Of a stretch of DNA of 64,000 bases, positions 11,091 through 25,516 are shown piece after piece. This stretch comes from Lysobacter arseniciresistens ZS79 (GTDB lineage: Bacteria; Pseudomonadota; Gammaproteobacteria; Xanthomonadales; Xanthomonadaceae). The stretch's first letter is position 1, and each line of letters opens with the position of its first letter. The stretch is taken from the NCBI RefSeq assembly GCF_000768335.1, contig NZ_AVPT01000009.1, positions 1 through 64,000 on the forward strand. Reading direction: 5' to 3'. The position numbers were made by a program, and so were the translations under genes. The notes under the pieces are model-generated. The model did not search any database. It was not told where the DNA came from and saw only the letters and a list, made by a program, of their open reading frames with translations.

Positions 11091-11163
11091 GTAGGAGCGA
11101 CGTAAGTCGCGACCCGCCGACCCCGCCTACCGATGTACAGGTCGCGACTCACGTCGCTCCTAC
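11091..11163. repeat. REP/SMAG-like inverted pair
   Basis: GTAGGAGCGACGTAAGTCGC at 11091 is mirrored by a reverse-complement unit ending GTCGCTCCTAC at 11163, with a spacer of about 30 bp. It lies between convergent genes. Confidence 0.85.
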
Positions 11164-11560: not shown

Positions 11561-11658
11561 CGTCGTCTCCATGCGCGGCATCCTACGCCGCCGCCGGCGT
11601 CCGCACGCTTCAGCCGCCCGCGCGGAACCGCCAGGCCACCGTTGCTATCCTTCCGCGC

Positions 11659-11705
11659 GGAGGACGACCTCCCCCGTTGCGGGCACCACGACCAGGACGG
11701 CCTGG
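11659..11705 (+). promoter_or_regulatory. Guanidine-II (mini-ykkC) riboswitch
   Basis: Two hairpins with the diagnostic ACGR tetraloops lie just upstream of sugE: GGAGG-ACGA-CCTCC at 11659-11672 and CCAGG-ACGG-CCTGG at 11692-11705, joined by a 19-base linker. The 3' arm CCTGG (11701-11705) can instead pair with CCAGG at 11711-11715, which contains part of the sugE ribosome site. Guanidine binding would hold hairpin 2 closed and free the ribosome site, the known mechanism for this class upstream of guanidinium exporters. Confidence 0.9.
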
Positions 11706-11723
11706 CACCACCAGGAGCCTGCC

Positions 11724-12038
11724 ATGGCCTGGATTTCCCTGTTCTTCGCCGGACTGCTCGAAGTGGTCTGGGCGTTCTCGATGAAGCAGTCCGAAGGCTT
11801 CACCCGGTTGATGCCGAGCCTCGTCACCGCGGTCGCGATGACCGCCAGCTTCGCCCTGCTCGCGTTCTCGATGCGGCAGCTGCCGCTGGGCACCGCCTAC
11901 ACCGTCTGGACCGGCATCGGCGCGGTTGGCGCGTTCATCGCCGGCGCCGCCTTCCTCGGCGAACCGCTGACCCCGATGCGGGTCACCGCCGCGGCGCTGA
12001 TCGTGTCCGGGCTGGTGCTGATGAAGCTGTCGTCGTAG
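11724..12038 (+). CDS. sugE: SMR family guanidinium exporter SugE/Gdx
   Basis: A 104-residue, four-helix small multidrug resistance protein. The essential membrane Glu lies in LLEVVWAFSMKQSEGFTR, and the GTAYTVWTGIGAVGAF and GEPLTPMR motifs are typical of the SugE/Gdx branch rather than EmrE. The guanidine-II leader upstream supports guanidinium/H+ exchange as the real role. The ATG at 11724 follows CAGGAG. Confidence 0.95.
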   Translation: MAWISLFFAGLLEVVWAFSMKQSEGFTRLMPSLVTAVAMTASFALLAFSMRQLPLGTAYTVWTGIGAVGAFIAGAAFLGEPLTPMRVTAAALIVSGLVLMKLSS

Positions 12039-12073: not shown

Positions 12074-12260
12074 GTAGGAGCGACGCAAGTCGCGACCCGC
12101 CGACCCCGCCAACCGACGTACAGGTCGCGACTCACGTCGCTCCTACCGCCGCACGCATCGCCACCACCCGTGCACCGACGCACCGCCCCATGTAGGAGCG
12201 ACGTAAGTCGCGACCCGCCGACCCTGCCTACCGACCCACAGGTCGCGGCCCGCGTCGCCC
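12074..12260. repeat. Two consecutive REP/SMAG-like inverted pairs
   Basis: The first pair spans 12074-12146 (GTAGGAGCGACGCAAGTCGC to TCGCTCCTAC). The second starts at 12192 with GTAGGAGCGACGTAAGTCGC and ends near 12260 with a decayed right arm (GTCGCGGCCCGCGTCGCCCC). Together they fill most of the gap between convergent sugE and crcB; nothing else is seen there. Confidence 0.85.
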
Positions 12261-12308: not shown

Positions 12309-12722
12309 TCAGCGCGGCAGCATCGCCACCGCGCGGATCCCCACCCACACCGCCGCGATGCCGAGCACCATGCTCGAGCCCGCGTACAGCGCCGCCACCG
12401 CGAACTCGCCGCGGCGGACCAGCTGGGTCGCTTCCAGCCCGAACGCGGAGAACGTGGTGAACCCGCCGAGCACGCCGGTGAACAGCAGCAGCCGCGTGCC
12501 CGGCCCGAACACCCCGTAGCGCGCCACCGCGCCGGCCAGCAGCCCCATCACCAGGCAGCCGGCCAGGTTGACCGCGAACGTCGCGAGCGGGAACCGCGTC
12601 GGCCCCGCGAAGTGCAGCACCCAGCCGCCCAGCGCATACCGCGCGACCGAGCCGGCGAACCCGCCGAGCCCGACCAGCAGCAGCTCCTTCAGCGCCACGC
12701 GCGACGCCCCGGCGCCGGCCAC
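12309..12722 (-). CDS. crcB: Fluoride channel CrcB (Fluc)
   Basis: A 137-residue, four-helix membrane protein that exports fluoride as an antiparallel dimer. The key motifs are present: GGFAGSVARY, the pore Asn region FAVNLAGCLVMG, and GVLGGFTTFSAFGLE with the Phe-box and TTFS sodium site. It lies 13 bp behind a small membrane protein gene. No fluoride riboswitch is visible upstream, so its expression may follow that operon. Confidence 0.95.
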   Translation of the reverse strand: MAGAGASRVALKELLLVGLGGFAGSVARYALGGWVLHFAGPTRFPLATFAVNLAGCLVMGLLAGAVARYGVFGPGTRLLLFTGVLGGFTTFSAFGLEATQLVRRGEFAVAALYAGSSMVLGIAAVWVGIRAVAMLPR

Positions 12723-20380: not shown

Positions 20381-20419
20381 TCTGAAGCGGGTCGCGGCCG
20401 CGCGCGGGGGGTCTGCGCG

Positions 20420-20442
20420 GTCGCGACTTGCGTCGCTCCTAC
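20420..20442. repeat. Single REP/SMAG-like unit
   Basis: One right-hand unit (GTCGCGACTTGCGTCGCTCC followed by TAC) lies between icd and a convergent gene. A decayed left partner may be the GGGTCGCGGCCGCGC just upstream, near 20389. Confidence 0.6.
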
Positions 20443-25357: not shown

Positions 25358-25516
25358 GTAGGAGCGACGTGAGTCGCGACCCACTGACCGATGGAGCCAC
25401 TGCGATCAACGCGCAACCCCGGTCGCGCGATCGCTGGACATCCGCCCACGAACACAACTCCGCGTGGACCGGCGCGCATCCCGTTGCCAGTGGGTCGCGA
25501 CTCATGTCGCTCCTAC
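25358..25516. repeat. REP/SMAG-like inverted pair, long spacer
   Basis: GTAGGAGCGACGTGAGTCGC at 25358 and its reverse complement ending at 25516 flank a spacer of about 105 bp. The CCCACTGACC / CAGTGGG flanks match those of the pair at 553-688, making these two the same longer subtype. Confidence 0.85.

Follow-up and report, generated by a model that had tools for sequence, protein, structure and literature searches.

A guanidine-II (mini-ykkC) riboswitch very probably occupies positions 11656–11705 of the forward strand in the 64,000-nucleotide stretch of Lysobacter arseniciresistens ZS79 DNA analysed here (contig NZ_AVPT01000009.1, positions 1–64,000; hereafter the window), where it is predicted to act as a translational ON switch before a Gdx gene. 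Its RNA belongs to a sub-architecture that has been overlooked in part, which carries a third small hairpin after the first hairpin, P1, and is tied to one Gdx clade. We consider it likely that this third-hairpin RNA turns on Gdx translation, with the 3′ end of its second hairpin, P2, taking part in the hairpin that covers the ribosome site. The guanidine-II class, its exporters and a ribosome-site hairpin overlapping P2 are already known, and the mechanism would be of a known kind; what is new is the sub-architecture, which tracks a single Gdx clade and in part escapes the Rfam threshold, and for which we infer ligand and function.

A covariance-model search of the window with Rfam RF01068 (Guanidine-II) matched 11656–11705 at 32.4 bits, barely above the gathering score of 32 (E-value 0.011 on the window scale and 1.3e-4 on the genome scale), and this was the sole match in the whole 3.09-Mb genome. 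The element consists of two G+C-rich hairpins with ACGR tetraloops, P1 (GGAGG-ACGA-CCTCC, 11659–11672) and P2 (CCAGG-ACGG-CCTGG, 11692–11705), each with five Watson-Crick pairs and each placed by the sequence and the RF01068 alignment. The first-pass annotation of this DNA had claimed a guanidine-II riboswitch with two perfect ACGR hairpins and had proposed a search with the mini-ykkC model, and on both points it was borne out. Between P1 and P2, at 11673–11683, lies the third hairpin (CCCG-TTG-CGGG), recognised from the sequence and from its conservation in the clade. The ribosome site begins 7 nt past the end of P2, with the Shine-Dalgarno sequence AGGAG at 11713–11717, and the ATG at 11724 follows after 6 nt. 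All these features lie on the plus strand. Like the RF01068 model, the window element thus has two ACGR hairpins before an exporter ribosome site and scores above the gathering score; it differs by the third hairpin in its linker, and its MKQ-type relatives (defined below) differ further by a P1 loop that is often enlarged, which takes them below the cut-off.

The folding energy of the 50-nt aptamer is ordinary compared with chance (z −0.73), and the element stands beyond chance by its conservation, not by folding energy alone. A fortuitous pair of ACGR hairpins with no role, for which the low Rfam score, the high G+C content and this ordinary energy could be cited, is very improbable: with the same position and spacing, the pair is conserved upstream of this kind of gene in 4 of the 10 genomes examined in the genus, counting the window, and in most of the best 80 named loci.

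The gene downstream (11724–12038, plus strand) encodes a 104-residue SMR-family protein of the Gdx/SugE type (Pfam PF00893, 99.3 bits), the kind of gene context, exporter or guanidine-degrading, in which the class is found. Its closest PDB chains are those of Gdx-Clo (8vxu, 108 bits; 6wk5, 106 bits), with EmrE at 56 bits, and 103 residues align with Gdx-Clo without gaps. Residues E13, W16, S42, Y59 and W62, which mark the Gdx subtype, are all present, and they were retained in 75/75 MKQ-type and 59/59 LKY-type proteins, a count in which one residue of L136 was skipped. According to the accessible text of PMC7695847, the guanidinium site of Gdx-Clo is formed or supported by E13, W16, S42 and W62, and Qac-subtype SMR proteins carry Gly or Ala where Gdx has W16; a role for Y59 in that site is described in the accessible text of PMC9574504. 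The nearness to Gdx-Clo and the retained residues support the annotation's view of the protein as a guanidinium exporter, an assignment made from sequence. After W16 the window protein differs from Gdx-Clo, reading MKQS in place of LKYS, and residue 60 is Thr in the window protein and in chain 8vxu, and Ala in chain 6wk5. The NCBIfam SugE equivalog (NF008512) gives the window protein 126 bits against a cut-off printed as 126, and gives 113.2 and 120.1 bits to two other MKQ proteins and 139.1 to one LKY protein.

Several further features were observed around this locus. A crcB/fluoride exporter gene (12309–12722, minus strand; TIGR00494, 94 bits) adjoins the guanidinium exporter gene, and within the window there was no fluoride riboswitch at the Rfam gathering score. 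An intergenic repeat, GTAGGAGCGACGTNAGTCGCGACC, is present in the window in 10 copies with at most 3 mismatches (0 in 100 shuffles), at 553–688, 11091–11163, 12074–12215, 20419–20442 and 25358–25516; several copies form inverted pairs, and two sets flank the tRNA-binding/SMR gene pair. Elsewhere in the L. arseniciresistens genome, a second SMR-like stretch (L037, G000:C19:171209–171358) covers the C-terminal half of the family only; it may be a truncated gene or may belong to a different protein.

Across the bacterial family, RF01068 matches were present in 69 of the 297 genomes sampled, 68 of them above the cut-off. Sorted by the downstream protein, these leaders comprised 62 before an LKY-type SMR gene (e.g., WAIGLKYT), 5 before an MKQ-type gene (e.g., WAFSMKQS) and 2 (L068 and L069) before a protein bearing a biotin carboxylase N-terminal domain. 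The five MKQ-type leaders are the window (L001) and four further genomes (L004, L005, L006 and L072) with the same two hairpins and the same kind of gene. Within the genus, 6 of 10 genomes had a match (window included), 4 MKQ and 2 LKY, and none had two. A protein search of named genomes gave a best 80 of MKQ loci, 72 of which carry a P2-type hairpin; by the rule used, L099, L104, L109, L110, L121, L141, L145 and L146 lack it.

For the comparisons below, identical leaders were merged, leaving 68 MKQ and 59 LKY, and representatives were obtained by removing leaders more than 85% alike, leaving 47 MKQ and 44 LKY, among which related sequences persist. Start codons for L066 and L136 were placed by hand, and L129, whose P1 had been misparsed, was excluded from the statistics. 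In a protein tree of 133 sequences, one branch separates MKQ from LKY (100/98); the tree was built from 106 columns for 133 rows with L136 left out and its bootstrap is unsettled, and only this main split is relied on. Residue 60 follows the same division, being Thr in 71/75 MKQ and Ala in 57/59 LKY proteins, and Gdx-Clo chains 8vxu and 6wk5 differ there in the same way. This residue may be linked to substrate range, a link for which our literature search found no paper. It should be noted that an MKQ-type SMR gene with P1 and P2 ACGR hairpins and an A+T-rich ribosome-site region also occurs in Dyadobacter bucti (Bacteroidota; L081:1430–1480), possibly through horizontal transfer.

The third hairpin distinguishes the two clades. 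Scored as at least 3 Watson-Crick pairs starting no more than 5 bases from P1, it was found in 40/47 MKQ representatives, window included, compared with a mean of 18.3 and a maximum of 28 in shuffled sequences (0/300 shuffles reached 40). The LKY representatives had it in 7/44, against a shuffled mean of 6.1, and 125/300 shuffles were as high. The linker fold energy gave the same picture, at −3.93 vs −1.91 shuffled (sd 0.21) for the 68 MKQ leaders and −0.38 vs −0.29 (sd 0.08) for the 59 LKY leaders. When linker halves were swapped between leaders, the native mean was reached in 0/2000 permutations for the 47 MKQ representatives and in 1489/2000 for LKY; the native partner was among the best tenth in 10/47 MKQ. 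The third-hairpin architecture tracks one transporter clade, MKQ; its sister clade LKY is without the third hairpin. RNAalifold on MAFFT alignment A1 (50 leaders) returned P2 only, and we take its miss of P1 to reflect misalignment of P1 loops that differ in length.

A hairpin running from the 3′ end of P2 over the ribosome site is likewise supported at the level of the clade, in many MKQ leaders. Presence/absence scoring of this hairpin was not discriminating (MKQ 40/47 vs 34.4 shuffled, LKY 29/44 vs 24.7), since the C residues of P2 find partners in the ribosome site itself; energy tests took its place. From the end of P2 to the ATG, the fold energy was −9.79 vs −4.61 shuffled (sd 0.24) in the 68 MKQ leaders and −4.07 vs −3.68 (sd 0.25) in the 59 LKY leaders, and the swap test reached the native value in 0/2000 permutations for the 47 MKQ leaders and in 8/2000 for LKY. 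The native partner was among the best tenth in only 11/47 MKQ, and when neither the P2 arm nor the ribosome site was allowed to change, just 19/47 MKQ and 5/44 LKY leaders fell below the 5th percentile of their shuffles. Among the five MKQ leaders of the family, the hairpin stands above shuffles in L006 only (p 0.025; window 0.37, L004 0.14, L005 0.895, L072 0.61). The P2 3′ arm and the ribosome site did not co-vary in MKQ (808/2000 swaps as good), in a comparison of low power, the P2 3′ arm being nearly invariant.

The first-pass annotation had read the ON mechanism directly from one pairing in the window, that of CCTGG at 11701–11705, the 3′ arm of P2, with CCAGG at 11711–11715. This helix can form (−7.3 kcal/mol), and with its 5-base loop CACCA it overlaps AGGAG at 11713–11717; the clade-level energy and swap tests uphold the involvement of the 3′ end of P2 in a ribosome-site hairpin. 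They do not extend to the exact window helix, which is only plausible as the mechanism: of 200 shuffles, 37% were at least as stable, the full pairing of the P2 arm with the ribosome-site region occurs in 1/47 de-duplicated MKQ leaders (the window only), and five contiguous pairs of this kind are possible in none of the other representatives (46 MKQ, 44 LKY). As a conserved switch it was rejected on that count of 1/47, and it is retained as one possible local state. Moreover, it makes up a minor share of the modelled ensemble, about 11–12% in two fold windows and about 0.1% in a third, and it competes with two other predicted covers. For 11656–11735 the free ensemble is at −32.60 kcal/mol; constraining the fold to P1 and the CCTGG/CCAGG helix gave −31.30 kcal/mol (~12% of the ensemble), to P1 and P2 −31.67 kcal/mol (~22%), and to P1 and a helix between the P2 5′ arm and the first codons −32.18 kcal/mol (~50%). 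For an RNA ending at the ATG the CCTGG/CCAGG helix holds ~11%, and extending the RNA 16 bases upstream leaves it and P1 plus P2 at ~0.1% each. The folds thus yield several different structures covering the ribosome site, and they show that no single helix suffices for reading the switch. CCTGG/CCAGG is perhaps the covering helix in L. arseniciresistens, at rather less than even likelihood.

The models leave out loop-loop kissing, the ribosome and the kinetics of transcription, so the folds cannot decide the covering helix. In the first of the two competing covers, the same riboswitch would use a linker anti-Shine-Dalgarno, 11674–11687 pairing with 11714–11727 from the ribosome site to the start codon with P2 enclosed, and kissing of the hairpins would withdraw the linker. 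This is the best fold of 11656–11726, and also of 11656–11735 with P1 and P2 enforced, where the ribosome-site GG remains covered mainly by the linker. A linker anti-Shine-Dalgarno has also been put forward as putative for the class in the accessible text of PMC9094411, in which the RNA studied is E. coli sugE, and linker/ribosome-site pairing of at least 5 bases is possible in 25/44 LKY leaders, with 17.0 expected from shuffles. However, such a cover would consume bases of the third hairpin, the conserved feature in MKQ, and in MKQ the linker does not co-vary with the ribosome site (1509/2000 swaps as good), the co-variation being weak even in LKY (114/2000); we hold it to be possible, if doubtful.

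The second cover would pair the P2 5′ arm (CCAGG, 11692–11696) with CCTGG at 11728–11732 in codons 2–3, so that one long hairpin hides the ribosome site and the start codon. It is the minimum free energy fold of 11656–11735, holding with P1 about half of the ensemble, and the codons ATGGCCTGG are common among relatives. These codons belong to a conserved M-A-W start, however, so the complementarity may be coincidence, and for an RNA that stops at the ATG a different fold is better than this helix; we regard it as unlikely. Still less probable, and in our judgement improbable, is that the P1 3′ arm CCTCC serves as the anti-Shine-Dalgarno and is released once ligand stabilises P1. At least 4 contiguous pairs between this arm and the ribosome site are possible in 32/47 MKQ leaders, and 5 in 10; but any CCTCC complements any good ribosome site, P1 persists in the modelled folds of 11656–11735, and the arm does not co-vary with the ribosome site (241/2000 swaps as good in MKQ). 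As anti-Shine-Dalgarno of the MKQ clade, both the P1 3′ arm and the linker were rejected for this lack of co-variation.

By consensus, the leader has no intrinsic terminator, which argues for translational control rather than termination; a transcriptional switch was rejected on this ground. There was likewise no promoter by consensus. TATCCT is found at 11646–11651 and TAGAAT-like boxes in some relatives, and the box pattern occurred in at least 4 leaders at just one offset (6/47 leaders), on which ground we claim no promoter.

The preferred reading, in which the P2 3′ end joins the covering hairpin, can be set out as follows. Guanidinium would bind P1 and P2 in their ACGR loops, the loops would kiss, and P2 would be stabilised. 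When ligand is absent, the 3′ end of P2 would be free to join the hairpin that covers the ribosome site, keeping translation low; when it is present, P2 would retain its 3′ end and the ribosome site would be freed. The ligand, the kissing loops and the ON direction are presumed here by analogy with earlier studies of guanidine-II RNAs. The present analysis itself provides the two hairpins, the exporter family and its retained binding-site residues, the conserved arrangement and the clade-level hairpin of the P2 end, and the identity of the covering helix in L. arseniciresistens, which we infer, is the least certain part.

According to the accessible text of PMC5486947, guanidine-II RNAs are found close to the ribosome sites of genes for exporters or carboxylases, and the expectation is that they switch translation on. 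For Gloeobacter violaceus the same text suggests a stem-loop that overlaps P2 and the ribosome site and is exclusive with the folded riboswitch; the window resembles it in having P2 near the ribosome site and a possible stem-loop overlapping both, and differs in that there it is a suggestion, whereas here there is a clade-level signal, but CCTGG/CCAGG itself lacks conservation. An anti-Shine-Dalgarno model appears in a figure legend of PMC7544219. For the Pseudomonas aeruginosa member, a translational and guanidine-responsive one, the accessible text of PMC9561414 reports measured guanidine-dependent initiation and a mutational test of P0, the covering helix proposed there, formed by the 5′ and 3′ flanks.

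The MKQ leaders also vary in their P1 loop. Among the 71 with a parsed P1, 31 were counted as ACGR (including the misparsed L129), 25 had one extra base and 15 had two; at least 40 of the 72 P2-bearing loci among the best 80 named thus have an enlarged loop (AACGR, CCACGT). P1 was unparsed in seven leaders (L070, L094, L107, L118, L131, L135 and L150), and the figure of 40 is a lower bound because L107, L118, L131 and L135, though unparsed, visibly have ACCACGTT- or CCACGT-like P1 loops. Of the 47 representatives, 20 had an enlarged loop: AACGA (6), AACGG (1), CCACGT (10), CAACGT (2) or CCACGA (1). The inner four P1 pairs were standard in 20/20 of these leaders (one G-T), and the fifth in 6/7 with one extra base and 4/13 with two; since the inner four pairs never vary in the two-base leaders, these are neutral on the P1 stem. 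None of the 40 enlarged-loop leaders passed the RF01068 cut-off (one of each kind, L074 and L084, scored 21.9 and 22.7 bits), and a match above it lies before the SMR gene in 16 of the best 80 named loci. The MKQ named loci were collected by protein and the LKY leaders by Rfam match, and for that reason enlarged loops had little chance of appearing in the LKY set.

A pattern for the two-base loop, containing no protein, matched in 6/398 genomes of the phylum (reversed control 0/398), and 6/6 matches, L158 among them, are followed immediately by an MKQ-type SMR gene, with starts that include GTG and TTG. The pattern for one extra base is loose, and its reversed control also matches; of its 11 places, 3 precede an MKQ-type SMR gene (L165–L167), 2 are canonical LKY leaders (L161, L162), and the remaining 6 look like chance. 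In the protein tree, enlarged-loop L149 sits among tetraloop Massilia and tetraloop L072 among enlarged-loop Stenotrophomonas, and L127 (Burkholderiales) is a further case of mixed neighbours. With differing sizes side by side in the tree, P1 loop size seems to have changed more than once.

A more far-reaching interpretation is that the MKQ leaders form a distinct guanidine-II sub-class with a shifted ligand (e.g., a substituted guanidine), a matched RNA-transporter pair missed by standard searches. The third hairpin, the P2-overlapping hairpin and P1 loops grown more than once (AACGR, CCACGT, CAACGT) while keeping ACG can be cited for it, as can MKQ transporters that differ at residues 19–23 and 60; we think it improbable and offer it as speculation. 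In the accessible passages, titles and abstracts of the guanidine-II literature we did not find the third hairpin or the P1 loop variants described. The accessible text of PMC12335538 updates the class consensus from 1977 bacterial examples, and that consensus may include some of the loop variants.

Two Guanidine-II matches immediately precede an ATP synthase subunit-a gene (PF00119), in Rhizobium setariae (L151:573–1386, 36.9 bits) and Kaistia granuli (L141:594–1406, 34.2 bits), and in both loci an MKQ-type SMR gene comes after it. Both genomes carry a further gene for this subunit, and a scan of 121 genomes from the order to which Rhizobium setariae belongs showed no other with two strong copies. 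The riboswitch-linked subunit reads SHSVRLFAV and the other copies SLSVRLF(A/G)N, a stretch that we take to surround the essential arginine, and the linked copy is perhaps a guanidinium-tolerant subunit. In the accessible part of the literature searched, guanidine riboswitches were not found linked with this subunit gene; the passages on riboswitches there concern Na+ riboswitches.

Taken alone, the window adds one further predicted guanidine-controlled exporter, and suggests that the NCBIfam name 'quaternary ammonium compound efflux SugE' is here better read as guanidinium export. Among the leaders examined, guanidine-II RNAs come in two architectures that track two transporter clades, and their expression platform varies more than a single model would imply. 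With 40 enlarged-loop leaders under the Rfam cut-off, the guanidine-II class may be under-counted.
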